This document shows positions 15,678-60,329 of a stretch of 61,275 nucleotides of DNA, one piece after another; the first letter of the stretch is position 1; each line of letters begins with the position of its first letter. Origin of the DNA: an uncultured Nitrosomonadales bacterium. GTDB lineage: Bacteria; Pseudomonadota; Gammaproteobacteria; Burkholderiales; Gallionellaceae. Location: positions 1 through 61,275 of the forward strand of contig CAIOSY010000153.1 of NCBI GenBank assembly GCA_903861075.1, read 5' to 3'. The notes beneath the pieces were generated by a model. It saw nothing but the letters and a program-made list of their open reading frames with translations. It was not told where the DNA came from and did not search any database. A program made the translations under genes and the position numbers.

Positions 15678-15706
15678 ATAATATAATACCTGATTTTTTT
15701 AATCAA
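15678..15706 (-). promoter_or_regulatory. Sigma-70 promoter of the isc operon
   Basis: On the - strand, TTGATT (15701-15706) and TATTAT (15678-15683) are separated by exactly 17 bases. Transcription would begin near 15671, giving a leader of about 55 bases before iscR. The -35 element lies inside the end of cysE. Confidence 0.7.
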
Positions 15707-15710
15707 CTAT
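15686..15710 (-). promoter_or_regulatory. IscR type 1 binding site
   Basis: The 25-base element starts ATAGTTGATT and ends ATCAGGTAT. It agrees with the E. coli type 1 consensus ATASYYGACT-RWWW-YAGTCRRSTAT at 22 of 25 positions by my hand alignment. It covers the -35 element and spacer of the iscR promoter and overlaps the last codons of cysE. That is the correct position for repression by [2Fe-2S]-IscR. Confidence 0.75.
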
Positions 15711-31936: not shown

Positions 31937-32869
31937 TCAATTTACTGATTGCGGCAGGATCCCTGCACGAATGACCGCCTCATTCAGTTTAGGTGAACAC
32001 AGTTCGATGAAGCGATAAGCAAAGCTGCGCAAATAGTGACCGCGACGCAAGGCAATATAAGTGGTGTTTGCGCCGAACAGATGCTCACATTGCAACAGGC
32101 GCAGATCGGAATCTTTGGCTGGGTTGAATGCCATAGACGCGATAATGCCGATGCCTAAACCCAGTTCCACATAGGTTTTAATCACGTCTGAATCGAGGGC
32201 CGACATGGAAATATCCGGCGTGACCCCGGCATCCAAAAAGGCCTGATCAATCCTGGCGCGCCCGGTTAGCCCTTCGTGATAGGTAACAATGGGGTATTCG
32301 GCCAATGCTTGCAACGTCAGCGGTTTCACCTGCTCCAGCGGATGTCCGGCAGGCACAATGACTGCGTGATGCCAGGTGTAAAAAGGGAAGGAATCCAGCT
32401 TAGTGACATCCGCCAGCGCCTCAGTTGCCATACCGATATCTGCTTCGCCGGAGAGTAACATGGCGACAATTTCATTCGGACTGGCCTGATGTAATTTCAG
32501 ATGCACCCTCGGGTACGTTTTCTTGAAGTCGGTAATCACCTTGGGCAAGGCATAGCGCGCCTGAGTGTGGGTCGCGACCACCGTCAACTGACCTTCGTCA
32601 CGCTGGCTGTATTGCTCGACCATATTCTTGATGTTGTTGGCATCCAGTAAAATCCGCTCGACGATTTGTAGCAATTCGCGTCCAGGCTCCGTCAAATCCA
32701 ACAGGCGTTTTCCTTTGCGCACGAACAACTCTACGCCCAATTCATCTTCCAGATCCTTGATGTGCTTGGATACGCCGGACTGCGAGGTAAACAGCGCGCT
32801 ACCTACCTCCGTGAGATTGTAGTTGCAGCGCACCGCCTCGCGGATAATCCTAAGCTGCTGAAAGTTCAT
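31937..32869 (-). CDS. cysB: LysR-family sulfur assimilation regulator CysB
   Basis: This is the transcription factor that activates sulfate transport and cysteine genes with N-acetylserine as inducer (310 aa). The N-terminus [20 protein letters not shown] is the CysB/Cbl helix-turn-helix start. The effector domain runs from about residue 92. Its start has AGGAGA five bases upstream and lies 20 bases inside cysA, so cysB is translated from the sulfate transport mRNA. The longer frame reaching 32959 is not used. CysB or its paralogue Cbl cannot be separated without a tree. Confidence 0.9.
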
Positions 32870-33896
32870 TTGCATCTCCTGTTTCAAACACACGGAACTG
32901 GCGCGGGCGAATAAAGACACGGTCGCCACAGACCAGCGGAGCTGTATCGAAGCGCTCACGACTTAACTCGATTTCGATCAATTCGCTGCTGTCATCCGCC
33001 GACACTTCAATACGCACAATCGAACCAATGGCGCGCACCAGTTTAACCTCAACCGGCAACGCCGTGTCATCTTGCGGCGTGCGGCTAATATCAATGTCGT
33101 GTGGACGCACATACGCCACAGCATCGCCGTGCTGTTCCGTCCACGGCGCGTGATCGCGGCTGTGAAATAGATTTACATTGCCGATGAACTGATAGACAAA
33201 CGGCGAGGCGGGCGCGGCATACACTTCATCCGGCGTGCCAACTTGTTCGATTTTGCCCTTATTCATGACCACTACACGGTCGGCCACTTCCAGCGCTTCT
33301 TCCTGATCGTGTGTTACAAAAATACTGGTGATGTGCAATTCGTCATGCAGACGACGCAACCAGCGACGTAATTCTTTGCGCACTTGCGCATCCAGCGCAC
33401 CGAACGGCTCATCCAGCAACAGGATTTTGGGTTCAACCGCCAGCGCCCGAGCCAAGGCAATACGCTGACGTTGTCCGCCGGATAACTGCGCAGGATAACG
33501 ATCCGCGAGCCAATCCAGTTGTACCAGATTCAGCAATTCATGCACCCGGCGTTGAATTTCCGCCTCGTGATGGCGTTCTTTTTTGGGCTTGACGCGCAGG
33601 CCGAAGGCGACGTTTTCAAATACGGTCATATGGCGAAATAAGGCGTAATGCTGAAACACGAAACCGACATTGCGCTCTCTTGCATCGCGCGCTTCGACAT
33701 CTTCGCCGTGAAATAGCAATTTGCCCGAATCCGCTAATTCCAGTCCGCCGATAATGCGCAGCAAAGACGTTTTACCACAACCCGACGGCCCCAACAGCGC
33801 GATCAATTCGCCACTATTGACTTCCAGATTGATGTTATCCAGCGCCTTGTAAGCGCCGAAATGCTTGTTGATATTTTCAATTGTGATGCTCATCAT
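32850..33896 (-). CDS. cysA: Sulfate/thiosulfate ABC transporter ATPase
   Basis: This is the energy-coupling subunit of the CysTWA importer (348 aa). Walker [17 protein letters not shown], signature [16 protein letters not shown], Walker [14 protein letters not shown] and H-loop VTHDQEEAL are all intact. The C-terminal TOBE-type domain contains [13 protein letters not shown]. The first ATG overlaps the cysW stop in TAATG; the next codon is also ATG and has better spacing from GGAG, so the start may be 33893. It overlaps cysB by 20 nt. Confidence 0.95.
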
Positions 33897-34747
33897 TACG
33901 CTCCATGCAAAGGTTCGCCGCTACGTTTTGCCTGCCATTCGACCAGCGACTTGACTGCCAGTGTGACGACCGCCAGCAACGCCAGCAGGGATGCCACCGC
34001 AAAGGCGGCGACAAAGTTGTATTCGTTGTAGAGAATTTCGACATGCAAGGGCATGGTGTTGGTCATCCCACGGATGTGACCGGAGACCACTGACACCGCG
34101 CCAAATTCGCCCATGGCACGCGCGTTACACAAAATCACGCCATACATCAGACCCCACTTGATATTCGGCAAGGTCACGCGCCAGAAGGTTTGCCAGCCGG
34201 ATGCGCCCAACGATACCGCCGCCTCTTCTTCCTCTTTCCCTTGTGCCTGCATCAGCGGAATCAGCTCACGAGCGATGAATGGAAAGGTCACGAAAATAGT
34301 TGCCAGCACAATACCCGGCACCGCAAACAACAGTTTGATGTCGTGCGCTTGCAACCACTCACCGAACCAGCCTTGTGCGCCAAATAACAGCACATACACC
34401 AGACCGGACACCACCGGACTCACCGCAAATGGCAAATCAATCAAGGTAATCAACAGACTCTTACCCTTGAATTCAAACTTGGCAATCGCCCAGGCGGCGG
34501 CAATACCGAACACCAGATTGCATGGCACGGCAATTCCGGCAGCGATAAACGTCAACTTGATTGCTGACCACGCATCCGGTTCTTGCAACGCCACCCAGTA
34601 CAAATCCCAGCCTTTGCTGAATGCCTGATAAAACACCGCAAACAACGGCAAGCCCAGAAACAGAAGCAGATAGGTGAGCGCCACGCCGATGAATAACAGC
34701 GTCACCGCTTTCGATTCATGCGTTGCGATTCTTGTCGTGATAGCCAT
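33896..34747 (-). CDS. cysW: Sulfate/thiosulfate ABC transporter permease CysW
   Basis: This is an inner-membrane permease of the sulfate importer (283 aa, six membrane helices). The EAA loop that contacts CysA reads [21 protein letters not shown]. The start ATG overlaps the cysT stop in TAATG, with AGGAG upstream. A longer open frame reaching 34777 was rejected for that reason. Confidence 0.94.
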
Positions 34748-35610
34748 TATCGAACTCCTCTGCGACTCGTCCACCATTGCAAGGCATTAACACCTAGCAA
34801 TAAAGCAAATGAAATCAATAACATAATTACAGCAATCGCGGTTGCCCCGGCATAGTCGTATTGCTCCAGTTTGGCAACAATCAGCAGCGGCGAGATTTCA
34901 GAGATGTAAGGCATATTGCCTGCGATGAAAATGACCGAGCCGTATTCGCCGATGGCACGAGCAAACGCCAGTGAAAAGCCAGTCAGTAGCGCCGGAAAAA
35001 TCGCCGGAAAAATCACCCGGCGAAACACATCCCAGCGTCCCGCACCCAAGCTGGCAGCGGCTTCTTCAACGCCCGCTTCCACATCTTCCAGCACGGGTTG
35101 TACGGTACGAACCACAAAGGGCAGACCGATAAACGTCAGTGCGACCACGATACCCAGCGGTGTGTAAGCGACCTTAATGCCTTGCGCGGCAAAATATTGA
35201 CCGATCCAACCGTGCGGCGCGTACAGCGTCGCCAGCGTAATTCCGGCAACGGCAGTCGGCAGCGCGAACGGTAAATCGACTAAGGCATCGACGATGCGTT
35301 TACCTGGAAACGTATAGCGCACCAACACCCAGGCGACGATCAAGCCGAAAAAGGCGTTAATCACCGCCGCCGCAAGGGACGCTAGAAAGGTCACGCGCAA
35401 GGATGACAGCACGCGGTCATTGGTGAGCACATCAAAAAACCCGCCCCAGCCCAGTGTTGCCGTCTTGAAAAACAGCGCGGACAACGGCACCAGCACGATC
35501 AGCGAAAGATATAACAGCGTGAAACCCAAGGCCAGATTGAAGCCTGGCAACACGCTATGCGCACGAAAACGCGTGGTGACGCGTTTCGAGCTTGCGGCCA
35601 ATTGCGCCAT
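34747..35610 (-). CDS. cysT: Sulfate/thiosulfate ABC transporter permease CysT
   Basis: This is the first permease of the importer (287 aa). The EAA loop reads [21 protein letters not shown], and the protein has six predicted membrane helices beginning with [20 protein letters not shown]. It is followed directly by cysW and preceded by a 118-base leader that contains an 8-bp hairpin. Confidence 0.94.
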
Positions 35611-35676
35611 AAAAAACTCCTTAAATCGAATCAGGCATGCAGTCTATCGCCAGCAAACGCACATGAAAAATCATAA

Positions 35677-35698
35677 TTTCTGCTTTGCTTAGCAGAAA
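35677..35698 (-). promoter_or_regulatory. Hairpin in the leader before cysT
   Basis: TTTCTGCT at 35677-35684 pairs perfectly with AGCAGAAA at 35691-35698 around a six-base loop. On the - strand it is followed after a few bases by TTATGATTTTT. It lies between the 48-codon gene and cysT and could damp or protect the mRNA after sbp, as is common after binding-protein genes. Confidence 0.4.
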
Positions 35699-35728
35699 AA
35701 TGAATAAGCGAGGAATTGTGTAGCTGAA

Positions 35729-35875
35729 TCAGGCAGCTTCAAGCAAGGGTGTATCCCACGTTGCAGCCGCAGCAGGACGTCCTGGCAAGTAACCTTGAAT
35801 CAAATGAACGCCCGAAAAGCGCGCCAACTCAAGCGGCTCCTTTTGCAAGGCATTCAAATGATGAAGTGCGGTCAT
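35729..35875 (-). CDS. Small hypothetical gene (48 aa) between sbp and cysT
   Basis: An ATG begins 5 bases after the sbp stop and opens a 48-codon frame. The product reads MTALHHLNALQKEPLELARF at the start, then HLIQGYLPGRPAAAATW, and ends TPLLEAA. It has no signal peptide, membrane segment or cysteine. The codon use looks like its neighbours and the frame fits exactly between two sulfate transport genes, so translation coupled to sbp is plausible. I do not recognise the family. The ribosome site is weak. Confidence 0.5.
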   Translation of the reverse strand: MTALHHLNALQKEPLELARFSGVHLIQGYLPGRPAAAATWDTPLLEAA

Positions 35876-35880
35876 AATAA

Positions 35881-36879
35881 TTACTTTTTGGAATAGAACT
35901 GATCGAACACACCGCCGTCCTTGAAGTGTTCAACCTGCGCCTGTTTCAAGCTACCGAACACCTCAGCGACGGTAAATAATTTCAGCGGAGGCAAGGTGCT
36001 GGCATATTTTTTGGCAATCTTTACGTCGCGTGGACGCAGTTCGAATTGCGCGGCGATTTCCTGTGCTTCCGGCGTATAAAGCTGTTGCAAATATGCCTCG
36101 GCGACTTTACGTGTGCCGTGTTTATCCACCACCTTATCTACGATGCTCACCGGCAAATCAGCCACGATACTGATAGGCGGATAGACCAAATCAAACTTGT
36201 CTGCGCCGTATTCCTGCTTGATCAAACCGACTTCATTTTCGAAGGTCACCAGCACATCGCCGATTTCACGCTGCACAAAAGTCGTGGTCGCACCGCGTCC
36301 GCCGGTTTCCAGCACCGGGACATTGGCAAAAATTTTACTCACCAGTTCCCGCGCCTCTCCGGGTTTGCCGCCCTGCTTAATCACCGAACCCCAAGCAGCG
36401 AGATATGCATAACGGCCATTCCCTGAGGTTTTTGGATTGGCAATAATCGCAGAAATGCCCGTTTTAGCCAGATCAGCCCAAGTCTTGATGCCTTTCGGGT
36501 TGCCTTTGCGTACCAGAAACACCGAAGTCGAGCTAAACGGGGCGCTGCCATTAGGCAGACGTTCAGCCCAATTGGCGGGTATCAGTTGCTTGTCAGCCAG
36601 CACATCCACATCAATGGACTGATTCATGGTCACCACATCGGCATCCAAGCCGTCCACCACGGCGCGCGCCTGCTTACTCGAACCGCCATGTGACTGGTTG
36701 ATGGTCAGATTGTCGCCGGTTTTTTGCTTCCAGTATTTGACGAATGTCGGGTTATAACTCTTGTAGAACTCGCGCGACACGTCATAAGAAGCGTTCAAAA
36801 TACTTACATCGGCGGACCATGCTGTATTTGACAGTGCGGCGAGCAGACCCAGCAGCAGGGATTTCTTCAGAAATTTCAT
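35881..36879 (-). CDS. sbp: Periplasmic sulfate-binding protein
   Basis: This captures sulfate or thiosulfate for CysTWA (332 aa). The signal peptide is residues 1-22 (ALSNTAWSA). Family motifs include ILNASYDVSREFYKSYNP, SHGGSSKQARAVVDGL, NPKTSGNGRYAYLAAWG and the end VFDQFYSKK. An AAGGAAT ribosome site precedes the ATG. A second protein with the near-identical tail GVFDQIYTKK is cut off by the right edge of the window. Confidence 0.94.
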   Translation of the reverse strand: MKFLKKSLLLGLLAALSNTAWSADVSILNASYDVSREFYKSYNPTFVKYWKQKTGDNLTINQSHGGSSKQARAVVDGLDADVVTMNQSIDVDVLADKQLIPANWAERLPNGSAPFSSTSVFLVRKGNPKGIKTWADLAKTGISAIIANPKTSGNGRYAYLAAWGSVIKQGGKPGEARELVSKIFANVPVLETGGRGATTTFVQREIGDVLVTFENEVGLIKQEYGADKFDLVYPPISIVADLPVSIVDKVVDKHGTRKVAEAYLQQLYTPEAQEIAAQFELRPRDVKIAKKYASTLPPLKLFTVAEVFGSLKQAQVEHFKDGGVFDQFYSKK

Positions 36880-36883
36880 TTAA

Positions 36884-37159
36884 TTATTCCTTGTTTTGAC
36901 AAGTGCAATAGACATTCTGCCCGTTGCTTATGCCCAGCATAATAAAGGCACCAGGCCATATTCCTAAATGAAAAATAGCGATTAGCTTATTCCAAAAGTC
37001 AACAGTAACAAGGTCGTGATGCCAGGTGATTGATCTGTCAGATGATCTGCCAGCAAAACGGAACATAGCTGTTTTTTTGCTATGCTTTGCAGAAAGAATT
37101 GCTTCGCGGGGTGATAAATTTTCCTTATGATGCAGCCATGGAAGTTTAACGCCTTTCAT
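36884..37159 (-). CDS. Possible small hypothetical gene upstream of sbp (91 aa)
   Basis: From an ATG at 37159 with a strong ribosome site (GGGAGGAGA, 4 bases before), a 91-codon frame runs to a stop 4 bases before sbp. The product starts MKGVKLPWLHHKENLSPREA, has a hydrophobic patch (IAIFHLGIWPGAFIMLGI) and ends YCTCQNKE. I know no homologue and the middle is low in typical core residues. It could equally be untranslated leader with a chance frame. The good ribosome site and the tight spacing to sbp argue for a leader gene. Confidence 0.35.
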   Translation of the reverse strand: MKGVKLPWLHHKENLSPREAILSAKHSKKTAMFRFAGRSSDRSITWHHDLVTVDFWNKLIAIFHLGIWPGAFIMLGISNGQNVYCTCQNKE

Positions 37160-37185
37160 ATGTCTCTCCTCCCTGTGACATCTTA

Positions 37186-37213
37186 GGGCACCCGCAACGG
37201 GTGCCCTTTTTTT
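37186..37213 (+). terminator. Strong hairpin with T tract between the desulfurase and sbp genes
   Basis: GGGCACCCG at 37186-37194 and CGGGTGCCC at 37198-37206 form a perfect 9-bp stem with a three-base loop, followed on the + strand by seven T. As a rho-independent terminator it points along the + strand, although both flanking genes are on the - strand. On the - strand it has A before and no T after, so it could block antisense transcription or act as a leader structure. Confidence 0.65.
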
Positions 37214-37287: not shown

Positions 37288-38985
37288 CTACCTGCGTACC
37301 AACTGCCTCACCACACCCACAAGACGATCAATTTCATCATGCGTGTTGTAGAACGCCAGTGACGGACGCACGGTGGCTTCCAGTCCGAAGCGACGCAGGA
37401 TGGGCTGTGCGCAGTGATGACCGGTACGCACCGCAATCCCTTCGCGATTGAGAGCCTCACCGACTTCCGTAGTCTGGTAACCGGCCAGTACGAACGACAG
37501 CACGCTGGTTTTGTCCGGCGCGGTACCGATCAGGCGCAATCCGGGTACGGTTCTGAGCTCCTCCATCGCATACACCAGTAGCTCGTGTTCATAGTGGTTG
37601 ATGTTGTCTATGCCAATTTTCTGCACGTAATCAATCGCAGCTCCCAAGCCCACTGCATCGGCGATATTGCCGGTACCTGCTTCAAACTTATTGGGTGCGG
37701 GGTGATAGCGCGTCTGCTCGAAGGTGACGTCTTCAATCATGTTGCCGCCGCCCTGCCAGGGAGGCATATCCGCCAGCACTTCCGGTTTGCCATACAGCGC
37801 ACCGATACCGGTCGGGCCGAACACCTTATGGCCGGAAAACACGAAGAAATCACAGTCCAGATATTGCACGTCAGCACGCAGATGCGAGACCGATTGTGCG
37901 CCATCGACCAGCACGCGCGCGCCGTAGCGATGTGCCATATCCACGATCTGTTTGGCCGGCGTGACCGTACCCAGTGCGTTGGACACCTGCGTAAACGACA
38001 CCAGTTTGGTACGCGAATTAAGCAGTCTTTCATACTCGCCCAGCAACACCTGACCATCGTCATCCACCGGAATCACGCGCAGTTTCGCACCGGTTTCGGC
38101 ACACAGCATTTGCCACGGCACGATATTGGCGTGATGTTCCAGATGAGAGATGATAATTTCGTCATCTTTGCCTATGTTCTTGCGGCCCCAGCTTTGCGCT
38201 ACCAGATTGATCGCCTCTGTGGTGCCGCGCACAAAGATGATCTCGCTGCTGGAACTGGCATTGATAAAATTAGCCACCTTGTCGCGCGCGCCTTCATAGG
38301 CATCGGTCGCACGCGCTGCCAATTCATGGGCCGCACGATGGATATTCGAGTTCTCGTGTTCGTAGAAATACGACAAACGATCAATCACCGACTGAGGTTT
38401 TTGCGTGGTCGCCGCATTGTCTAGCCAGGCCAACGGACGGCCATTCACCAATTCTTTGAGAATAGGAAAGTCGCGTCGCACCGCCATGACATCAAAGGCC
38501 GGATGACCTGACGTGATGATTTTCTGTTCCTTGGCGGGTGCCGTTTTTACCGGTGCTGACTGCGCACGCGCATCATTTGCCGGTTGATTGAACCTGGCCG
38601 CTTCATCCAGAAAATACAGCGTGGCTCCTGTCATTTTAGGATGTTCAGCGGCATGGTCTTTCAGTAAATCGCGCAGCACCGCATCGTCATACAAATCCGT
38701 GCTCAGATTCGACGGCAGGTTAAACCCTGTATCGGGCTTAAAGTCAAAGTTCGGCGTTGAAATCGGGCTGGCAATATTCAAATCAAGCGGCGCAGCAAAA
38801 TCAAACGGGATGCCAGCAGCTTGCGCTGATGCGGGACGCGTCGAGCCTAACGATGCCGTGGATGGATTCGGCACGCCAGAAAGCCCGCCAGGCACTCCCG
38901 CGAACAACTCGTTTGCCAGGCGTTCAATCAGCTCGGTGTCCGGAACAAAGCTGCCTGTGTCAGCGTTCAGATTACTTGTACTCAT
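37288..38985 (-). CDS. Encapsulin-associated cysteine desulfurase (class II, SufS-like) with N-terminal cargo domain
   Basis: This PLP enzyme splits cysteine into alanine and persulfide sulfur (565 aa from the chosen ATG). The catalytic domain starts near residue 162 (HPAFDVMAVRRDFPIL). The PLP lysine is about K387 (VFSGHKVFGPTGIGALYG) and the persulfide Cys about C525 (RTGHHCAQPILRRFG), the SufS pattern. The first 160 residues are an extra, Pro/Ser/Ala-rich and probably disordered segment. It contains an amphipathic helix (TELIERLANELFAGVPGG), two FDF motifs (GIPFDFAAP, NFDFKPDTG) and DLYDDAVLRDLLKDHA. Such extensions are the known targeting domain for family 2A encapsulins. The ATG lies 14 bases inside the shell gene; earlier in-frame starts at 39006 and 39030 remain possible. 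Confidence 0.92.
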   Translation of the reverse strand: MSTSNLNADTGSFVPDTELIERLANELFAGVPGGLSGVPNPSTASLGSTRPASAQAAGIPFDFAAPLDLNIASPISTPNFDFKPDTGFNLPSNLSTDLYDDAVLRDLLKDHAAEHPKMTGATLYFLDEAARFNQPANDARAQSAPVKTAPAKEQKIITSGHPAFDVMAVRRDFPILKELVNGRPLAWLDNAATTQKPQSVIDRLSYFYEHENSNIHRAAHELAARATDAYEGARDKVANFINASSSSEIIFVRGTTEAINLVAQSWGRKNIGKDDEIIISHLEHHANIVPWQMLCAETGAKLRVIPVDDDGQVLLGEYERLLNSRTKLVSFTQVSNALGTVTPAKQIVDMAHRYGARVLVDGAQSVSHLRADVQYLDCDFFVFSGHKVFGPTGIGALYGKPEVLADMPPWQGGGNMIEDVTFEQTRYHPAPNKFEAGTGNIADAVGLGAAIDYVQKIGIDNINHYEHELLVYAMEELRTVPGLRLIGTAPDKTSVLSFVLAGYQTTEVGEALNREGIAVRTGHHCAQPILRRFGLEATVRPSLAFYNTHDEIDRLVGVVRQLVRR

Positions 38986-39889
38986 GGTACTTGCCCACTT
39001 CGACATCTTCGAGTACGGCAAGGGCATCATCAGTCAACACGGCCAGCGAGCAGTACAGGGAAATCAGGTAAGAGGCAATCGCGCGGCGGTCGATACCCAT
39101 GAAACGCACCGACAGACCCATGCTTTGTTCGCCAGGCAGATTCGGTTGATACAAGCCGACCACGCCTTGACGACTCTCGCCCGTACGCAGCAAAATAATG
39201 CTGGACTTGCCATCCACGACTGGGATTTTGTCCGAAGGAATCAACGGAATACCGCGCCAGGTCAGGAAAGGTGAGCCCGAAATGGTGATGGTAGGAGGTG
39301 GTACACCACGACGGGTGCATTCACGACCGAAAGCGGCAATCGCCAGAGGGTGAGCCAGGAAGAAACCCGGTTCTTTCCAGACTTTAGAAATCAGCTCGTC
39401 CAGATCATCCGGTGTCGGCGCGCCGGTGCGGGTCTTGATGCGCTGGCTGTCAGCCACATTGGTCAACAAGCCGTATTCCTTGTTGTTGATCAGTTCGTTT
39501 TCCTGACGTTCCTTGACCGTTTCGATGGTCAAACGCAATTGTTCTTTGATTTGATTGTGCGGGCTGCTGTACAAATCGGACACACGGGTATGTACGTCCA
39601 CCACGGTATTGACCGCTGAGAGCATATATTCACGGCCCCATTCTTCATAATCGACGAAGGTTTGCGGCAACTGGCGTTCGTCGCGTTGCGAGCAGGCAAC
39701 GGTTACGCGGGATGCATCTTTAACCTTGTTGACGCGATAGATACCGGCTTCGAGCGGCACCCAGCTGAGCATTTGCGGCAACCAGCGCGGTGTGATGATA
39801 GAGAGTTGCGGGACAGTTTTGGTGGCATTAGCCAACGTGCGTGCGGCGACATCGCTTAACGCGAGTTGATCTTTTACATGAGCAGTCAT
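38972..39889 (-). CDS. Family 2A encapsulin nanocompartment shell protein
   Basis: This is a HK97-fold protein predicted to self-assemble into an icosahedral shell around the cysteine desulfurase (305 aa). It matches SrpI-like family 2A encapsulins: N-terminal arm DQLALSDVAARTLANATKTV, then PRWLPQMLSWVPLEAGIYRV, QTFVDYEEWGREYMLSAVNTV, LAHPLAIAAFGRECTRRG and the C-terminal SYLISLYCSLAVLTDDALAV. No cyclic-nucleotide-binding insertion is present, which separates 2A from 2B. The ribosome site AAGGAATC is good. The desulfurase cargo follows with a 14-nt overlap. The family is known to associate with sulfur metabolism and, in Acinetobacter, to hold elemental sulfur. Confidence 0.93.
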   Translation of the reverse strand: MTAHVKDQLALSDVAARTLANATKTVPQLSIITPRWLPQMLSWVPLEAGIYRVNKVKDASRVTVACSQRDERQLPQTFVDYEEWGREYMLSAVNTVVDVHTRVSDLYSSPHNQIKEQLRLTIETVKERQENELINNKEYGLLTNVADSQRIKTRTGAPTPDDLDELISKVWKEPGFFLAHPLAIAAFGRECTRRGVPPPTITISGSPFLTWRGIPLIPSDKIPVVDGKSSIILLRTGESRQGVVGLYQPNLPGEQSMGLSVRFMGIDRRAIASYLISLYCSLAVLTDDALAVLEDVEVGKYHEYK

Positions 39890-39946
39890 GATGATTCCTT
39901 ATGAAATAAAACGATATAGTTATATGAAAAAAAGCTAAGCAATGTT

Positions 39947-39987
39947 CCGCCTGTTGGCGGCTCACTTCAACCTGCTATAGCCGCCAA
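39947..39987 (-). promoter_or_regulatory. Two mutually exclusive hairpins between the XRE gene and the encapsulin gene
   Basis: Stem A is TTGGCGGCT (39954-39962) with AGCCGCCAA (39979-39987), 9 perfect pairs, starting 3 bases after the XRE stop. Stem B is CCGCC (39947-39951) with GGCGG (39956-39960), 5 pairs and a four-base loop. Both use 39956-39960, so only one can form. On the - strand stem B is followed by TTGCTTAGCTTTTTTT. This could be an attenuator or a processing site that sets shell and cargo levels apart from the upstream enzymes. A weak promoter (TTGCTT, 18 bases, TATATC) overlaps the T run. Confidence 0.5.
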
Positions 39988-39989
39988 TC

Positions 39990-40211
39990 CTAAATATGTT
40001 CACAGCGTGCAATGAAAGCGGAGAGGCGGATTTCCAGTGCAGCGGACAGTTTTGACAGAGTAATCAGCGAAGGAATCGCGTGCCCGCGCTCGACCTCACC
40101 CAGGTAAGAGCGGTTAAGATCGGCGCGTTCGGCCAGCATCTCCTGCGACCAACCGCGCTCTTCGCGTAATTGCCGCAATACCTGTGCGAACTGCGCGACG
40201 GGCGCATTCAT
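39990..40211 (-). CDS. XRE-family helix-turn-helix regulator
   Basis: This is a 73-residue protein that is almost only a Cro/C1-type HTH domain: LRQLREERGWSQEMLAERAD, LNRSYLGEVERGHAIPSL, and a C-terminal helix ending FIARCEHI. It has one cysteine (C70) near the end. The start overlaps the serine acetyltransferase stop by 4 nt. Its place directly before the shell gene suggests local control of the nanocompartment operon; the ligand is unknown. Confidence 0.88.
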   Translation of the reverse strand: MNAPVAQFAQVLRQLREERGWSQEMLAERADLNRSYLGEVERGHAIPSLITLSKLSAALEIRLSAFIARCEHI

Positions 40212-41149
40212 GACGCTGACCCTCCGGGTAATTCATGCTGTGAGTTGGCTTGTGTGATTACGCTACCCGGCGGCACGGAACGTGTCAGCCAGACATTGCC
40301 GCCGATGGAAGAACCGCGCCCGATGGTGATACACCCCAAAATGGTGGCACCCGCATACACCACCACGTCATCTTCGAGGATAGGGTGGCGCGGCTGTCCC
40401 TTTTCCAGCATGCCGTCTTCACCGACATTAAAACGTTTGGCCCCCAGAGTGACGGCCTGATACAGACGCACTCGCTCGCCGATGATTGCTGTCTCGCCGA
40501 TGACCACGCCCGTCCCGTGATCGACAAAGAATCCAGAGCCAATCACAGCGCCCGGATGGATGTCGATACCTGTTTTTGAATGTGCCAGTTCTGCGATGAT
40601 GCGTGCAATCATAGGGACACCCAATCGGTAGAGTTGATGCGCGATGCGGTGATGAATCACCGCCTGAGCACCGGGATAGCACAGCAGAATTTCATCGACA
40701 CTGCGCGCTGCCGGATCACCGTGGAAGGCGGCACGTACATCGGTGTCCAGCACGCTGCGAACGCCAGGCAGGGAAGCGGCAAAGGTGCGCACGATTTTGA
40801 TCGACAAGGCTTCATTGTCGTGATCATTGCCCGATAAACGCGAGGCGTAGTGAAGTTCTAAAAATACCTGTTGATGCAAGGCGTGCAGTGCGGAATCAAG
40901 CGTATGAGCGACATAAAAGTCTTCGCTTTCCTGCCTTAGGTCGGGCGGCCCCAATCGCATCGGGAATAATGCACCGCGCAGGCTATCCATGATTTCACGT
41001 ACCGGACCTGATGCAGGTAACTCTCGCCCGCCACATTCGTGGTTGCGCGCACAGGATTCGCGCCATTCTCGACGTATATCACGCAACTCACCAACCACGC
41101 GCTCGAGCCCCCAATTGGGTTGCGGGTTCTGTGCAGCGCTCATGTTCAT
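40208..41149 (-). CDS. Serine O-acetyltransferase, long (EpsC/plant-like) form
   Basis: This makes O-acetylserine from serine and acetyl-CoA (313 aa). The N-terminal helical domain is longer than in the cysE copy at 15699. The beta-helix contains [57 protein letters not shown] and [15 protein letters not shown]. This subtype is the one usually found beside family 2A encapsulins. It overlaps both cysK (4 nt) and the XRE gene (4 nt). The second start codon (MSAAQN) is possible. Confidence 0.92.
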
Positions 41150-42120
41150 ACAGCCAGTCCCGCTGCGTCGAACAGCCCTTCAAACAGGATAGAACTCAAA
41201 TAGCGTTCAGCTGAATCCGGCAGAACCACCACGATAGTCTTGCCCGCATTTTCAGGGCGTTGCGCTAAACGTGCTGCAACCGCAACCGCTGCCCCACAAG
41301 AAATTCCGGCCAGAATACCTTCTTCACGCGCCAGACGACGAGCATACAATACCGCATCCTCATTGCTGACCTGCTCTATGCTGTCAATCAGATCCAGATC
41401 CAGGTTGGCCGGTACGAAGCCTGCGCCTATGCCTTGTATTTTGTGCGGACCGGGTTTGAGTTCTTCACCATTACGCTTCTGTGTCAAAACGGGACTAGCC
41501 GAAGGCTCAACTGCAACGGACTGAATTGGCTTGCCGCGCGTCTTTTTAAAATAGCGCGAAACACCGGTAATCGTGCCGCCGGTTCCCACACCGGAAACGA
41601 AAATATCGACATTGCCGTCGGTATCGTTCCATATTTCAGGACCGGTGGTGGCTTCATGTATCGCCGGGTTGGCCGGATTTTCGAATTGTTGCAACAGAAG
41701 ATATTTTGGATCGGAATCGGCAATTTCGCGTGCACGGGCTATCGCTCCGCTCATGCCTTTTGCACCTTCGGTCAGCACCAGCTTTGCGCCCAGAGTTACA
41801 AGCAGTTTGCGGCGTTCAATGCTCATCGTTTCCGGCATGGTAAGTGTCAACGGTATGCCGCGCGCTGCCGCGACGAACGCCAGTGCAATGCCGGTATTGC
41901 CACTGGTCGGTTCAACCAGTTCTTTGCCCGCGCCCAACACACCGCGCTTTTCGGCGTCGTTAATCATCGCCGCCCCTATGCGGCATTTCACTGAATAAGC
42001 CGGATTGCGACCTTCGATCTTAGCCAGCACCGTGGCCTTGGCGCCATCGATGACGCGGTTTAAACGAACCAGCGGCGTATTGCCGATGGACTGAGAATTA
42101 TCTGCGAACCAGTGCGACAT
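41146..42120 (-). CDS. cysK: Cysteine synthase (O-acetylserine sulfhydrylase)
   Basis: This PLP enzyme joins O-acetylserine with sulfide to give cysteine (324 aa). The PLP lysine lies in [15 protein letters not shown], the substrate loop is [19 protein letters not shown] and the phosphate loop is [17 protein letters not shown]. It follows the rhodanese gene by 29 nt and overlaps the serine acetyltransferase. In this operon it feeds cysteine to the encapsulated desulfurase. Confidence 0.94.
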
Positions 42121-42149
42121 GTTTTTCTCCTGTTATTTATTCGGGTGAA

Positions 42150-42611
42150 TTATTCTTGTGTAACCGGCAGGCGACGATTCAGCCAGCCCAATCTTGGATT
42201 GCCATCGCCTTCAAACCCTTCCAATATATTGAAAGCATTGCGAAATCCCGCCTCCGTCGCCGCTTCGGCAGCAGCGACCGAACGCTTGCCACTACGGCAT
42301 AAAAACAACACCACATTGCCCTTGTTGACGACCGAATCCAGTTCATTCAGAAAGTGTGGATTTTTGGACATATCCGCGCTCACTAGCCATTCGATATGCG
42401 GCGCAGAGGGCACGGAACCGGTTCGTTGCAATTCTCTGCCGGTACGCACATCAATCAACTCGGCAATACCAGCCGAAAATAGCGACCAGGCCTGTTCTGG
42501 CGTAACATCACCTGCGTATTGCAATCGGGATTTTTGTGCCCCATCACGAGCAGCAGCAAGTATGGCGTGAGACTGGGTATTGGCCTCGGATGAATCAATA
42601 GCGGTAAACAT
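42150..42611 (-). CDS. Rhodanese-like sulfurtransferase, encapsulin operon
   Basis: This is a single-domain rhodanese of 153 aa. The active-site loop is complete, with the catalytic Cys in VVLFLCRSGKRSVAAAEA, and the entry motif is ELIDVRTGRELQRTG. It lacks a signal peptide, so it acts in the cytoplasm. It is the first gene of the operon that runs through cysK and serine acetyltransferase to the shell and cargo. It could carry persulfide sulfur to or from the compartment. The ribosome site GAGGAAG is good. Confidence 0.92.
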   Translation of the reverse strand: MFTAIDSSEANTQSHAILAAARDGAQKSRLQYAGDVTPEQAWSLFSAGIAELIDVRTGRELQRTGSVPSAPHIEWLVSADMSKNPHFLNELDSVVNKGNVVLFLCRSGKRSVAAAEAATEAGFRNAFNILEGFEGDGNPRLGWLNRRLPVTQE

Positions 42612-54073: not shown

Positions 54074-55138
54074 ATGAAATTCAATAAGTTATCTTGGATA
54101 TTCGGTGCGCTGACGCTGCTCCAGTTAGTCCCTTCTGCATCTGCTGCGGAGCCGTATCCGAAAGAAATCCGTATCGCTTTTTCCAGTGCAGGGGCGAGTG
54201 GTCGTCCGCTGGCGGGAGGCAGTTCACTCGCGACGGCACATTTGCATGGTGCGCTCGAAGAGGAATTTAAAAAGGACGGTATCGCCATCAAATGGTTTTT
54301 CAATGTGGGTGCGGGCCCTGCGACCAATGAGCAATTCGCAAACAAGTTAATCGACTTTGCCAGCCATGGCGATTTACCGTTGATCGTCGGGCGCTCTACC
54401 GGACTTAAACACAAAATTATTCTGGGGCAAGGGCGTTTCGGCGAGGTGGTCTTTGTTGTACCGGCTAATTCAGAAGCTAAATCTCTGGCTGATCTGAAGG
54501 GTAAAAAAATCGGCGTGACCAAGGGAACGTCCGGTCAGTTGACACTGGCACGGGTGCTGGAGCGCAACGGTTTTACCGAACGCGATTTCAAGTTGATTAG
54601 CTTGGATGCCGCAACGCTCAAGGCATCGCTCGCAACAGGTGATATCGACGGTGCGATCGTTAAGCCTTACGACCTGATATCGCGAGGGGTCGCTAAGGAG
54701 CTGTACCGCGTCAACTTCGATCCTAAAATTACCAGCATCAGTACCTTTTGGGTCGGGGAAGAATTTGAGAAAAAGTATCCTGATCTAGTGCAGCGTGTAG
54801 TGACCACCGTGGTCAAGGAAGCCAAGTTTGCCTCTGAGGAAAAAAATCGTACCGAGTTGATGAAGTTGTGGTCTCGTCAGGCAACCGACACTTACCTCGA
54901 TTATGTCGAAAGCTGGAAGCGTGATCCTCTGCGCACGCGAATCAGTCCCTTGCTTGATGAATACTATGTGGCCAGTTTACAAAAAGCGGTCAATGAAACC
55001 AAACGTTTCAAGCTGATCCGCCACGATGTCGATGTCAACGGTTGGGTAGAACCCAAGTACCTCAATGCGGCGCTCAAAGAGCTGAAGCTGGAACACTATT
55101 GGGATGAGTACGACAAGGACGGCATTATCAAGAAGTAG
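54074..55138 (+). CDS. ABC transporter substrate-binding protein, SsuA/TauA-like
   Basis: This is a periplasmic binding protein of 354 aa with a signal peptide (residues 1-24, VPSASAAEPY). It has the NMT1/SsuA fold: GAGPATNEQFANKLIDFASH, LADLKGKKIGVTKGTSGQLT, LARVLERNGFTERDF, ASLATGDIDGAIVKPYDLIS. Relatives bind taurine, alkanesulfonates or aromatic sulfonates. The pocket contents cannot be read here. The gene is followed by a hairpin and two permeases. Confidence 0.87.
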   Translation: MKFNKLSWIFGALTLLQLVPSASAAEPYPKEIRIAFSSAGASGRPLAGGSSLATAHLHGALEEEFKKDGIAIKWFFNVGAGPATNEQFANKLIDFASHGDLPLIVGRSTGLKHKIILGQGRFGEVVFVVPANSEAKSLADLKGKKIGVTKGTSGQLTLARVLERNGFTERDFKLISLDAATLKASLATGDIDGAIVKPYDLISRGVAKELYRVNFDPKITSISTFWVGEEFEKKYPDLVQRVVTTVVKEAKFASEEKNRTELMKLWSRQATDTYLDYVESWKRDPLRTRISPLLDEYYVASLQKAVNETKRFKLIRHDVDVNGWVEPKYLNAALKELKLEHYWDEYDKDGIIKK

Positions 55139-55148
55139 GCAGCGCATT

Positions 55149-55177
55149 CCCGGTTGCTGTCTTAGATTGCGACCGGG
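55149..55177 (+). other. Intercistronic hairpin after the binding-protein gene
   Basis: CCCGGTTGC at 55149-55157 pairs with GCGACCGGG at 55169-55177 (8 of 9 pairs). There is no T tract. Such structures after binding-protein genes often protect the upstream mRNA so that the binding protein is made in excess over the membrane subunits. Confidence 0.5.
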
Positions 55178-55205
55178 GATCTAAAGAATTCTGGAAGGAT
55201 AAATT

Positions 55206-56042
55206 ATGAGTGAAATAACAAGTTCCGTGCTGATTCGTCCCGCAGGGGCAGGCCGGTGGTTCGCTGTGTTGGGCAACTTAACGCATCGCTTAGGTTTAAG
55301 TGCGGTCGGCTTGATTTTGCCTCTGGCTGTGTTGGGCTTGTGGCAATACGCGGTGAATCACGAGTGGGTGGCCATACAGCTGCTACCGCCGCCCGAACTG
55401 GTGTGGCAATCATTGCGTGAGTTGTGGGATGCGGGTGATTTGACCCGCAATTTGGCGGTGAGTCTGACGCGTATCGGCTGGAGTGTGCTGATCGGCAGTT
55501 CCATCGGCTGGCTGCTGGGCTTTTTGATGGGCTTATCAAGGACGGCGCGGGACTTTTTGTATCCCAGTTTCGAGGTGTTTACCCAATTCCCGGTGGTCGG
55601 CTGGATTCCGATTCTGATTATTTTTTTAGGCATTGATGAAGGTCTGAAGATCGCCGCCATTTCCATTGCGGTGGTCGTGCCGGTGACGGTTGCAACCTTT
55701 AAGGGCATTGTCAATATTCCGTCCGCACTGCTGGAAGTCGCCAAAGTTTATCGCTTCAGTCACAGCCAGGTCTTGCTGCGCGTGGTGTTGCCCGCCGCCT
55801 TGCCCGCGCTGTTCAGCGGTTTCCGCCAAGGCATTATGCAGGCGTGGCTGGCACTGGTATTTGTCGAATTACTGGCGTCCAGCGAAGGCATCGGTTACCT
55901 GATGGTATGGGGGCGGCAGTTGATGCAACTGGATCTGGTCTTCGTCGGCTTGCTGGTGATTGGTCTGGTTGGGGTCGCACTGGACGTGTCATTACGCTAT
56001 CTGGAATCAAGACTGCAAAGCTGGCGTCATGCCGCTCACTAA
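55206..56042 (+). CDS. ABC transporter permease 1, SsuC/TauC type
   Basis: This is an inner-membrane permease of 278 aa with about six helices. The segment LLPPPELVWQSLRELWDAGD is typical for nitrate/sulfonate/taurine permeases. The ATPase-contact loop reads ALLEVAKVYRFSHSQVLLRV, followed by LPAALPALFSGFRQG. The ribosome site GGAAGGATAA is strong. Two different permeases in one operon suggest a heterodimer. Confidence 0.88.
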   Translation: MSEITSSVLIRPAGAGRWFAVLGNLTHRLGLSAVGLILPLAVLGLWQYAVNHEWVAIQLLPPPELVWQSLRELWDAGDLTRNLAVSLTRIGWSVLIGSSIGWLLGFLMGLSRTARDFLYPSFEVFTQFPVVGWIPILIIFLGIDEGLKIAAISIAVVVPVTVATFKGIVNIPSALLEVAKVYRFSHSQVLLRVVLPAALPALFSGFRQGIMQAWLALVFVELLASSEGIGYLMVWGRQLMQLDLVFVGLLVIGLVGVALDVSLRYLESRLQSWRHAAH

Positions 56043-56052
56043 AGGAATTGAA

Positions 56053-56814
56053 ATGAGTCTGAATCTTAAAAATTTACGGGGCGCGGTGTTGCCGCTGGCT
56101 TTGCTGCTTGTCTGGTATGCCGTGACGGCCTTGGGGTTGGTCAATACCAAACTGATCGTGCCGCCCGAAAAAGTCTTGCAAGTCGCGTATAAATTCGTGA
56201 TGCGCGGAAATTTTCTGGAAAGCATCGAGGCCAGTCTGTTCCGTGATTTATCCGGATTCCTTCTTGGCAGCGTGGCGGGTGTGTTGCTGGGTGTCTTGAT
56301 GGGATTATCGCGCTGGACCGAACGCTTTGTCGGCCCCAGTTTCAATACCTTAAAGCAGATTTCCCTGTTCGCCTGGTTGCCGCTGATTTCAACCTGGCTA
56401 GGTACGGGGGATGCGGCCAAGATATTGTTTGTCGCCTTATCTGCCTTTTATCCGGTGGCGCTCAATACCTTTGAAGGCGTGCGCGGCGTATCCAAAGCGC
56501 AACTCGAAGTCGCCCGCGTTTATGCCTTTACGTACAAGCAATTGATTACCAAGTTGATTTTGCCATCCGCCTCGCCGCAGATACTGACCGGTCTGCATTT
56601 GGGCTTGATTTACGCCTGGATGGCGACCATAGGCGCGGAATTCCTGCTGATTAGTTCTGGCAGTGGTTTGGGCGATACCGTCATCAAGGGACGTGCAGCG
56701 TTCAATATCGAACTGATCGTATTCGGCATGCTGACCATAGGTCTGATCGGCGCAATTTTCAATCATATCGCGACCCGTATCGAACGCCGCTTGCTGGTTT
56801 GGCGCGGCGCTTAA
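56053..56814 (+). CDS. ABC transporter permease 2, SsuC/TauC type
   Basis: This has 253 aa and is homologous to permease 1. The start MSLNLKNLRGAVLPLALLL is preceded by AAAGGAA; the earlier in-frame start at 55960 overlaps permease 1 and was rejected. The typical segment is KLIVPPEKVLQVAYKFV and the coupling loop is AQLEVARVYAFTYKQLITKL. It lies 10 nt after permease 1. Confidence 0.88.
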   Translation: MSLNLKNLRGAVLPLALLLVWYAVTALGLVNTKLIVPPEKVLQVAYKFVMRGNFLESIEASLFRDLSGFLLGSVAGVLLGVLMGLSRWTERFVGPSFNTLKQISLFAWLPLISTWLGTGDAAKILFVALSAFYPVALNTFEGVRGVSKAQLEVARVYAFTYKQLITKLILPSASPQILTGLHLGLIYAWMATIGAEFLLISSGSGLGDTVIKGRAAFNIELIVFGMLTIGLIGAIFNHIATRIERRLLVWRGA

Positions 56815-56847
56815 TTCATCATTTAATTCATATACCAGGAGATCATC

Positions 56848-57693
56848 ATGGCTCACGCAGCGACCCTTGAAATCAAGAACTTGAACAAACAATACCAAGT
56901 GGGGGACAAATCCCTCCCGGTGCTGGAAGATATTTCACTCTCCATCAAACCGGGTGAATTCGTCAGCATCGTCGGTTCCAGCGGTTGCGGAAAATCGACT
57001 TTACTCAAATTATTGATCGGGCTGGAGGATCAGTATCAGGGCGACATTCTGCTCGATGGAAAACGCATCGTCGGCACCAGTTTAGAGCGCGGCATCGTGT
57101 TTCAGGAACACCGATTATTTCCATGGCTGACGGTGGAACAAAACATCAGCATCGGCTTGCTTAATAACACCGAATTAAGCGCAGAAGAAAAAACCAATTC
57201 CATTCAAGAGCATATAGAATTGGTCGGTTTGAAAGATTTTGCTAACGCCTATCCTTACCAGCTCTCTGGCGGCATGTCGCAACGGGTCGCCATTGCCCGC
57301 GCCCTGGTTAATCGACCTGAAGTGTTGTTGCTGGATGAGCCGTTTGGCGCGTTGGACGCCTTTACTCGCGCCTATTTACAACAGGAATTACAACGCATCT
57401 GGGAAAAGGAAGGCATCACCATGATTTTAGTGACGCACGATGTGGAAGAAGCGGTTTATCTGGGTGATCGCGTGGTAGTAATGCAGCCGCGTCCCGGTCG
57501 CATCAAACGCGTCATAGACGTGAATCTGCCGCGTGAACGTACCCGTTCCAGCGCCAAATTCACCGCGATCAAGGAAGAAGTGTTGCGCGAATTTGCTGAC
57601 ACACCGGACACAGTGGAAGAATTGACTACTCAAACGACAGTGAATGAAGCGCCGAAAAACAGCTTCCTTACTGCTGATGCGCTTTGCTATTAG
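56848..57693 (+). CDS. ABC transporter ATPase, SsuB/TauB type
   Basis: This has 281 aa. Walker A is [16 protein letters not shown], the Q-loop is [16 protein letters not shown], the signature is [15 protein letters not shown], Walker B is [15 protein letters not shown] and the H-loop is [14 protein letters not shown]. The Phe-Pro-Trp after the Q-loop is usual for the sulfonate/nitrate group. The tail of about 25 residues after the core is not conserved. Confidence 0.9.
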
Positions 57694-57771
57694 GCATAAC
57701 GCACCACGATTACGCGGCGAGCAATCTGAATTAAAACTTCACACATAAACCATCATTCTCTGACTGCATTC

Positions 57772-59178
57772 ATGATACAAAAAACATCCCGTTTGCACAC
57801 TATCGTTATTCTAGGCGCAGGTTACAGCGGCACGCTGACTTCAGTCAATATTCTGAGAAAAGCCGTATCGGAAGGAATACATATACTACTGATAGAGGGG
57901 CGCCTGCCTTTTGCACGCGGACTGGCTTACCATAGCTGGGATGATAATCTTCTGTTGAATGTACCCGCTGGTAATATGAGTGCTCTGGCCGATGAACCCG
58001 GACATTTTGTGTCCTATTGTCAAAATATCGATCCAGCTTTCAATGCTCACTCATTTATTTCGCGACGCATTTACGGTGATTATCTGGAACATACGCTGGC
58101 GCAAGCGAAAAAGGAAAGTCTTGCCGTTCTGCACAAAGTAGAGGGGCATGCGGTTGCTGTTCACCCCTTTGTTGACTCAACAGGATTTTCAGTTCAAATG
58201 GCAAATGGTGAAATTTTTTCAGCAGATCAATTGGTGCTGGCCTTTGGACATTTGTTACCCAAAAATCCGGGTTTGCCCTCGGATTTCTTTGCGACTGACT
58301 CATACATCGGAAATCCCTGGGATTTTGCTGCGCTGGATGGCATTGATCATGACTGTCCGGTGTTGTTGATTGGTTCTGGTCATACGGCAATCGACACATT
58401 ATTCCGACTGACTAGCAGTCATCCCAGAAAAGTTTTTCTTGTCTCTCGCAGAGGCTTACGTCCCCACGTTCACCGCAGCATGGCGCACCAGACGCCGCTA
58501 CTGGTTGCGTTCCCATCGTATTTGCATGAGGTTCCTTGTACGGTGCGTGCTTATCTGCACGCGTTGCGCAATGAGGTCGCAAAAAGAGAGCGTTGTGGCG
58601 GAAATTGGCGGGACGTCATCAATGAATTGCGCCCTCACACGTCCGCTATTTGGAGTCATTTTAACTTGGCTGAGCGGCGCAGATTTCTGATCCATACAGT
58701 TGCTTTTTGGGATATTCATCGCCACAGAATATCGCCGTCTGCACACTGGCGTCTTACGCAGATGCTAAATTCCGGGCAGGTCGAGATCATTCCTGCTTAC
58801 ATTCAGTCTTATGATCCTTGTGACGAAGGGGTCAATGTCCGGCTTCGTTTGCGGCACGAGGAAACGACCAAAGTAGTGAGGGTCGATACAGTCGTTAACT
58901 GCACCGGCCCTAATTACAATATTTCGACATCAACCATGCCATTGATAAAACAACTTTCGAATGATGGCCTGTTAAAACAGGATTCGATGAAGATTGGATT
59001 AGAATTGGACGATCAATATCAGCTAATTGATTCTCATGGCACGCCTGTTAACCGGCTGTATTACGTCGGGCCGATGCTCAAGGCGCGCTATTGGGAAGCA
59101 ATCGCTGTTCCGGAGTTACGCGGGCATACGCTTGATTTGGCTAAGATAATATTAGCGGAAATCGAGCATGAACAGTAA
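57772..59178 (+). CDS. FAD/NAD(P)-binding protein
   Basis: This has 468 aa. The N-terminal dinucleotide motif IVILGAGYSGTLTSVNIL is followed by LAYHSWDDNLLLNVPAGNMS and a second site VLLIGSGHTAIDTLFRLTSS, the layout of the PF13454-type FAD-NAD(P) binding family. The C-terminus has TVVNCTGPNYN. It has no signal peptide. It follows the importer after 78 bases and ends 9 bases before the convergent regulator. It is the only cytoplasmic oxidoreductase of the cluster and so a candidate for attacking the imported compound. Related proteins include hydroxyacylglutathione-type and siderophore monooxygenase-like enzymes, but the reaction is not known. Confidence 0.75.
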   Translation: MIQKTSRLHTIVILGAGYSGTLTSVNILRKAVSEGIHILLIEGRLPFARGLAYHSWDDNLLLNVPAGNMSALADEPGHFVSYCQNIDPAFNAHSFISRRIYGDYLEHTLAQAKKESLAVLHKVEGHAVAVHPFVDSTGFSVQMANGEIFSADQLVLAFGHLLPKNPGLPSDFFATDSYIGNPWDFAALDGIDHDCPVLLIGSGHTAIDTLFRLTSSHPRKVFLVSRRGLRPHVHRSMAHQTPLLVAFPSYLHEVPCTVRAYLHALRNEVAKRERCGGNWRDVINELRPHTSAIWSHFNLAERRRFLIHTVAFWDIHRHRISPSAHWRLTQMLNSGQVEIIPAYIQSYDPCDEGVNVRLRLRHEETTKVVRVDTVVNCTGPNYNISTSTMPLIKQLSNDGLLKQDSMKIGLELDDQYQLIDSHGTPVNRLYYVGPMLKARYWEAIAVPELRGHTLDLAKIILAEIEHEQ

Positions 59179-59187
59179 TTTACGCCG

Positions 59188-60249
59188 TTATTCTATGATT
59201 CCGAAATTTTTCAGCTGGGTTCTGAGCACATTACGGCTGATGCCCAGCAGTTTTGCGGCTTGCACCTGATTCTGGTTGCTGTGTTCATAGGCCTGAATGA
59301 TCAGTTTACGCATCACGGAATCGTGCAATTCCTCGGTCTCTTTGGCGAACAGTTGTGCAAAGACTTTTTCCAACGGGCAATTATCAGCAATAAATTGCCG
59401 GGTTTCTGCGCTCAACTCGGATGCGCCGGATTGTATATGCGGCAGATTCAAGTGGACTGGCAGCAGCACGTTGCCATCGCATACCAGCAGCGCTCGATGG
59501 ATGGTGTTTTCCAGCTCACGAATATTGCCCGGCCACGGGTAGGCGTGCAGCAGGCGTAGCGTATCAGGGTGCAGTGTCGGCTCTGCGGTGTGTAAGCGGT
59601 CGCGGTATACCGCGATGAAATGTTCAACCAGCGGCAGGATGTCGCCCTGACGTTCGCGCAGCGGCGCCAGTTGAATCGGCACAACATTGATCCGGTAATA
59701 TAAATCTTCGCGAAAACGCCCGGCACGCACCGCTTCTTCCAGATTCACGTTGGTCGCCGCAATCAATCTTACATCAATCGGCGTGGCTTTGCGTGAACCG
59801 ATGCGCACAATTTCACGTTCCTGCAACACGCGCAGCAATTTAACCTGAGTGGAGAGCGGCAGATCGCCAATCTCATCGAGAAACAAAGTGCCGCCATTGG
59901 CGCTTTCAAACCAGCCGATTTTGGAGGTAACCGCGCCGGTAAATGCACCGCGTTCATAGCCGAACAGCTCACTCTCGACCAGGGTTTCTGAGAAAGCGCC
60001 GCAGTTAATTGCGGCGAATGGACCATCGCTGCGTGAACTTTGTGCATGAATATGCCGTGCGACCAGCTCTTTGCCCGTGCCTGTGTCGCCTCTGATATAA
60101 GCCGTGGCATTGCTGGGCGCGATACGGTCTAGCAAATCCAGCAGCTTTTGCGATTCCGGATCGGAAAAAATCAGCGCGCTGGCACGAATGGATAAGCTGA
60201 TCCGCTGGGGATCTGGAAATGTAATGAGTTTGCCGTTCACCGGATTCAC
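59188..60249 (-). CDS. Sigma-54-dependent activator without a sensor domain
   Basis: This has 353 aa from the chosen GTG. The AAA+ domain begins near residue 20: Walker [16 protein letters not shown], the sigma-54 contact motif [12 protein letters not shown] and Walker [16 protein letters not shown]. The C-terminal Fis-type helix-turn-helix is [20 protein letters not shown]. There is no receiver, GAF or PAS domain, as in SfnR-like activators of sulfone use. The frame is open to 60360 but that part lies across a terminator; GTG at 60240, with AGGTGA 5 bases upstream, is an alternative start. It probably acts on the -24/-12 promoters at 52070, 52384 and 44093. Confidence 0.9.
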
Positions 60250-60264
60250 CTGTGACCTATGTTT

Positions 60265-60293
60265 AAAAGAACAGGGGCAGTTTCCTGCCCCTG
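60265..60293 (-). terminator. Rho-independent terminator after the EAL gene
   Basis: CAGGGGCAG and CTGCCCCTG form a perfect 9-bp stem (60272-60280 with 60285-60293), loop of four, followed on the - strand by TTCTTTT. It ends the transcript of the sulfate-binding protein and EAL genes just before the sigma-54 activator start. Confidence 0.85.
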
Positions 60294-60329
60294 AAACTGA
60301 GTTATGCAGCCAAGGAGGAGGGATAAAAT

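Follow-up and report, generated by a model that had tools for sequence, protein, structure and literature searches.

Among described systems, the locus reported here is closest to one on plasmid pANL of Synechococcus elongatus, where cysK, epsC, the shell gene srpI, the cysteine desulfurase gene cyd and a rhodanese gene stand side by side. The accessible text of PMC8049743 reports that the S. elongatus shell and CyD are upregulated on sulfate starvation, and refers to work on how sulfur and CysR control genes of the cyanobacterial plasmid. Serine O-acetyltransferase (SAT) and rhodanese are the most enriched accessory genes of family 2A desulfurase operons in a published survey, the accessible main text of which names no XRE regulator or promoter element for these operons (PMC8346489). 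Here, we report a family 2A encapsulin locus in a 61,275-nucleotide stretch of DNA from a freshwater bacterium of the Gallionellaceae (contig CAIOSY010000153.1, positions 1 to 61,275; hereafter, the window), in which a small XRE-type regulator gene and a conserved DNA element stand directly before the shell gene.

Six genes lie on the minus strand of the window, in the order rhodanese, CysK, SAT, XRE, shell and CyD. The window shares with pANL the side-by-side arrangement of cysK, epsC, shell, cyd and rhodanese genes, a shell 76.2% identical to SrpI and N-terminal loading motifs in CyD (PMC8049743, accessible text), and with the surveyed operons the shell, cargo, SAT and rhodanese (PMC8346489, accessible text). 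The pANL locus differs in being plasmid-borne and in having rhodanese after cyd; no XRE is annotated in the 18.9 kb of it examined, and neither XRE nor the element was detected upstream of srpI. The accessible part of PMC8987985 discusses XRE factors in one section and encapsulins in another, and no local regulator of this kind was found in the encapsulin literature searched, most subscription papers and all supplements being outside its reach. The gene set is already known in kind from pANL; the regulatory variant with XRE and the element is the new result, and the XRE gene, which the first-pass annotation of this DNA had called just "a small regulator", is the most unexpected component of the locus.

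On the sequence evidence, the locus probably carries a dedicated local switch, with XRE as activator of shell and desulfurase as a second transcription unit. We put the probability of a two-unit sulfur encapsulin locus, in which XRE acts at the element to activate the shell promoter, at roughly 0.58.

The element, TTGGCGGCTATAGCAGGTTGA (39967 to 39987, minus strand), is the proposed XRE site and was recognized in an alignment of DNA upstream of the shell gene from 17 sequences (the window and loci L006 to L015, L075, L076, L079, L081, L083 and L085), where it forms a conserved island amid poorly alignable DNA. Its layout between XRE and shell is a 16-bp core, GGCTATAGCNKGTTGA, then N19, then GANNNT. 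Across 13 representatives (<93% shell identity), the core averages 1.58 bits per column, against 0.03 for the upstream flank and 0.09 for the spacer. Two further conserved parts had not been used for core definition, namely, TTG upstream of the core (kept in 12, 13 and 13 of the 13 representatives) and GANNNT 19 bases past it (G, A and T each in 13/13). Together these read as a putative sigma-70 promoter, with a −35 TTGA, a 17-bp spacer and a −10 in which G replaces the first T. The predicted shell promoter of the window (39942 to 39970, minus strand) comprises −35 TTGAAG (39965 to 39970), the 17-bp spacer and −10 GAACAT (39942 to 39947), and the shell transcript is predicted to start near 39935. 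The hexamer GANNNT, compared over 29 loci, follows a spacer of 17 bp in 26 and of 18 bp in 2, with CAAAGT in 1, and in 15/30 loci the site begins 93 or 94 bp upstream of where the shell is estimated to start (range, 78 to 116). Inside the element lies the palindrome GCTATAGC (39974 to 39981, minus strand). The window element also overlaps a perfect 9-bp inverted repeat, TTGGCGGCT...AGCCGCCAA (39962 to 39987 and neighbouring bases, minus strand), which is not kept in the other aligned loci. A known RNA leader was considered and found unsupported, the three sub-threshold Rfam matches including none at the shell leader.

For the pairing of XRE with the element, 186 shell stretches were dereplicated to 129, of which 127 had at least 700 bp of upstream DNA (L013 and L187 were left out for short upstream DNA). 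XRE was sought with a profile made from 25 of its own copies, which gave scores of at least 68.8 or no match, and the core was called present at up to two mismatches, 50 to 160 bp upstream of the shell. It was found in 29 of the 30 loci with XRE and in 1 of the 97 without (four of the latter having longer shells that resemble family 2B). With the 17 discovery sequences excluded, the counts are 14/15 and 0/96, two of those 15 (L180 and L183) having first been found by pattern. Among base-shuffled upstream zones, 1 of 6000 contains the core.

Exact matches to the full pattern in 18 shell-bearing genomes fall at the shell promoter only (15/18 genomes). The shell site has one mismatch in G456, one in G451 (two contigs splitting one locus) and two in G512, which also has a one-mismatch match elsewhere; at up to two mismatches, the 18 genomes together give 52 matches, against 58 for a reversed control pattern. 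In scans that began from the pattern, a first version had matches in 2 of 399 genomes, one being the window and the other the unrelated locus L101, and was replaced by a second, as one position in the phylum sample showed T besides G and CTTA was absent. With the second version, 399 genomes gave 10 matches, 9 of which were shell promoters preceded by XRE, and the reversed control gave 4 matches in 2 genomes. The regulator-element pair is present in 15 of the 40 shell-bearing genomes of the order sample of 399, with G226 not judgeable.

Several observations count against a switch of this kind. The palindrome is exact in just 19 of the 30 XRE loci, which weakens its reading as a dimer site, and a generic promoter scan does not list the shell promoter. 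Two pattern matches, L184 (1 of the 10) and L101 (from the earlier pattern), lie away from shells. L199 combines a diverged XRE with a four-mismatch site, and in L011, where other genes occupy the XRE position, a degenerate site persists. A tree of 103 shells requires five changes for the XRE label and four for the element, and of just two independent pairs on well-supported branches, one agrees and one does not differ. Because independent changes are so few, the Fisher value for the XRE-element association is not an independent test; the better evidence is the conservation over a randomised background, the placement, the exact sites only at shell promoters and the pattern-first recovery.

The same tree bears on a distinctly unlikely explanation, in which another protein (e.g., CysB or a special sigma factor) reads the element while XRE and element merely co-travel with one operon type. 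Few independent gains and losses of XRE are what such co-travel could produce, and CysB-family genes do lie close to the locus, both in the window and in several relatives. However, 96 of the 97 loci without XRE also lack the element, several of them with cysB nearby (L018, L034, L065 and L069), and XRE and site have degenerated or been lost together in L199 and L011. As a separate observation on L142/L011 (genome G512), the rhodanese-to-XRE part, 430 to 2312 upstream of the shell, is swapped for two genes, presumably methyltransferase or betaine-lipid genes, and the palindrome is degenerate.

XRE (39990 to 40211, minus strand) is a 73-amino-acid (aa) single-domain helix-turn-helix (HTH) regulator (PF01381, 61.6 bits; cut-off, 23). 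It resembles restriction-modification controller proteins in sequence, its nearest solved relatives being C.BclI (2b5a; E, 7.7e-12) and C.AhdI (1y7y; E, 1.6e-10), and its recognition-helix region reads LNR(S/T)Y(L/V)G(E/D)(V/I/L)ERG across 24 uninterrupted aligned copies. A sensing cysteine (RCE) was considered and dropped, as it is absent from 7/25 aligned copies. In L134 (genome G481, about 8045 to 9158), an insert of about 1.1 kb splits the XRE gene and the promoter element is intact.

XRE is like C.BclI, C.AhdI and C.PvuII in size, HTH sequence and place beside the promoter proposed as its target. Controller proteins belong to restriction-modification systems, whereas the scanned neighbours of XRE in the window are sulfur, cytochrome and transport genes, with no restriction or methylase gene among them. 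The controller operator, an autoregulatory site, precedes its own gene, whereas the window element lies downstream of xre, and genome G000 has no exact element match elsewhere. Controller-protein promoters, in the literature accessible, usually have two sites, whereas the encapsulin element has one conserved site.

XRE is proposed to bind the element immediately before the shell promoter and, most likely, to turn on shell and CyD, because the site, with a predicted centre at about −42.5, directly adjoins the −35 box, and the −10 of this promoter departs from consensus. A centre near −42.5 is the usual position of a class II activator. It is unlikely, in our estimate, that XRE instead represses the shell promoter until a sulfur signal or the loss of XRE lifts the block. 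Repression is common among XRE-family proteins, and a site against the −35 box can also obstruct polymerase, but the first −10 position is G, not T, in 26/29 loci, as expected of a promoter needing help, and XRE has no sensor domain by Pfam. C.PvuII both activates and represses, according to the accessible text of PMC3695507.

With XRE as activator, the first unit (rhodanese, CysK, SAT and XRE) would supply dedicated cysteine synthesis and a sulfur acceptor, with the regulator last, and the second unit (shell and CyD) would follow behind cysteine synthesis. SAT and CysK would convert serine and sulfide to cysteine, and encapsulated CyD would convert cysteine to alanine and bound sulfur, which may be kept in the shell or handed to rhodanese to be taken onward. 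By analogy with controller proteins, XRE could delay the cysteine-consuming CyD until the cysteine supply is up; shell and desulfurase would then appear only once the extra supply exists, and cellular cysteine would not be drained. In the accessible text of PMC3695507, C.PvuII activates its nuclease gene with a delay, and controller proteins hold the nuclease back relative to the methylase. That a restriction-modification-type controller protein was recruited to a bacterial protein organelle as a single-target timer is a possibility that we put forward only tentatively, its probability lowered slightly because of the inexact palindromes.

The shell (38972 to 39889, minus strand; 305 aa) scored 536.7 bits against the family 2A profile NF041162 (cut-off, 380) and 360.3 bits against PF19307, and SrpI (6x8m) aligns to its residues 7 to 305 (phmmer; E, 4.6e-157). 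It also exceeds the cut-off of the family 2B model NF041163 (432.3 versus 400 bits), over the second half of that model only; PF19307 is the sole domain at E ≤0.001 across the 305 aa, with no cyclic-nucleotide-binding domain. CyD (37288 to 38985, minus strand) scored 897.9 bits against the cargo-specific NF041166 (cut-off, 800), and its catalytic part resembles solved cysteine desulfurases from about residue 160. The longest open reading frame begins at 39030, and ATG at 38985 is the most natural start, giving 565 aa. The N-terminal loading region contains LIERLANELFAG and TLYFLDEAARF, which by eye correspond to the published cargo-loading motifs LARLANEFFS and AASPYYFLDG (PMC8049743, accessible text). 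The first-pass annotation had named these genes as a family 2A shell and its cysteine desulfurase cargo, and the profile searches, which found encapsulin/HK97-type relatives of the shell, confirm both identities at the sequence level. We infer that CyD is packed inside the shell and that sulfur is stored there; sulfur storage by family 2A shells was reportedly the subject of a 2024 paper.

The earlier claim that the locus also encodes both enzymes of cysteine synthesis and a rhodanese held in profile searches. The first gene, for rhodanese (42150 to 42611, minus strand), scored 44.2 bits against PF00581 (cut-off, 22.2), and its translation contains LCRSGKRS, which we take to be the active-site loop. 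CysK (41146 to 42120, minus strand), an additional copy of cysteine synthase A, scored 453.2 bits against TIGR01139 (cut-off, 350.95). SAT (40208 to 41149, minus strand) is of the EpsC type (NF041874, 166.8 bits; cut-off, 150) and lies below the cut-off of the cysE model TIGR01172 (169.7 versus 210.65 bits). Shell family, cargo and accessory enzymes support the proposed link of the locus to sulfur metabolism.

Judged by profile searches, the cysteine enzymes of the encapsulin locus are extra copies in their own genome. Two further cysKM-family proteins exceed the cut-off on other contigs, a canonical CysE lies elsewhere in the window (15699 to 16427), and the next-best class-V aminotransferase of the genome (13914 to 15122) is one that we take to be IscS-like. 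A cysteine synthase complex formed through a C-terminal isoleucine of SAT was also considered. The window SAT ends in ELPGGSAS, but this tail says nothing on such a complex because a terminal isoleucine is likewise missing from the CysE of this genome. The SATs of L016, L018, L019 and the Hyphomicrobium loci L034, L046, L055, L062, L069 and L084 end in G(G/A)GI, which resembles the CysK-binding tail of CysE.

The coordinates bear out the description of six genes on one strand with overlaps of 4 to 14 bases (CysK/SAT, 4 bp; SAT/XRE, 4 bp; shell/CyD, 14 bp given the ATG at 38985). The single six-gene operon drawn from that description is doubtful because a conserved promoter-like element sits between XRE and shell. 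Further along the minus strand lie sbp, cysT, cysW, cysA and a gene for a CysB-family regulator (31937 to 36879). Placement of the encapsulin genes upstream of sbp-cysTWAB was upheld by profile for Sbp, CysA and the CysB-family regulator, all on the same strand; cysT (34747 to 35610) and cysW (33896 to 34777) are putative identities assigned from position.

The first-pass annotation had presented this transporter setting as new, yet it recurs elsewhere. Among the best 80 shell loci of the matches listed, 52 have at least 7 kb on both sides, and a CysT and/or Sbp homologue lies in the flanks of 28 of these 52; the association with sulfate uptake thus recurs. SAT occurs in 42 of the same flanks, CysK in 10, XRE in 12 and rhodanese in 9. 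Gene order varies: several Gallionellaceae loci carry the transporter genes downstream in the same orientation, and many Methylophilaceae loci carry them upstream and divergent. In different families, cysT follows cyd on the same strand at about 160 bp (L010), 210 bp (L013) and 620 bp (L019), which suggests that sulfate uptake has been joined to the encapsulin repeatedly. The adjacency is not fixed: in the closest sister genome, G032 (shell 98% identical), the operon is present, but neither Sbp nor CysT occurs in the 6.8 kb examined downstream of CyD, and the genome's close CysT sits on a different contig.

We consider it very unlikely that the six genes form one operon joined to the sulfate transporter with no internal control. 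The shared strand, short gaps and overlaps would suit such an operon, as would the closely following cysT of L010 and L013, but the promoter-like element before the shell is conserved, G032 lacks the transporter adjacency, and about 410 bp separate CyD and sbp in the window. The transporter genes are associated with the encapsulin locus, and their co-transcription with it is a candidate only.

Between CyD and sbp, a strong terminator-like hairpin with a T run (37185 to 37207, plus strand, opposite to the operon) overlaps sub-threshold Rfam matches to suhB (27.4 bits; threshold, 41) and anti-hemB (22.7 bits; threshold, 49.5) and is perhaps an unannotated small RNA. A small gene at 36884 to 37162 was rejected, with no homologues at E <0.3 among the loci beyond the window's own DNA. 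The region previously described as a sigma-54 organosulfur-like locus (54074 to 60360) holds ABC transporter genes and genes for an NMT1-like binding protein, an FAD-NAD(P)-binding protein and a sigma-54 activator. The chain of sulfur import, assimilation and storage once proposed for the window is plausible.

The shell is patchily distributed, being present in 5/61 relatives, 13/150 sampled genomes of the family, 17/398 of the phylum and 40/399 of the order (39 over the cut-off). Family 2A encapsulins are widespread, and a one-site, one-regulator pair with a predicted transcript start makes their control directly testable; environmental isolates, such as Ferriphaselus sp. R-1, offer such a test. 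The element serves as a DNA signature for the XRE-type encapsulin subtype. If the proposed switch is true, sulfur encapsulins would have a dedicated regulator and operator, common to several betaproteobacterial families and the verrucomicrobial metagenome-assembled genome carrying L076.

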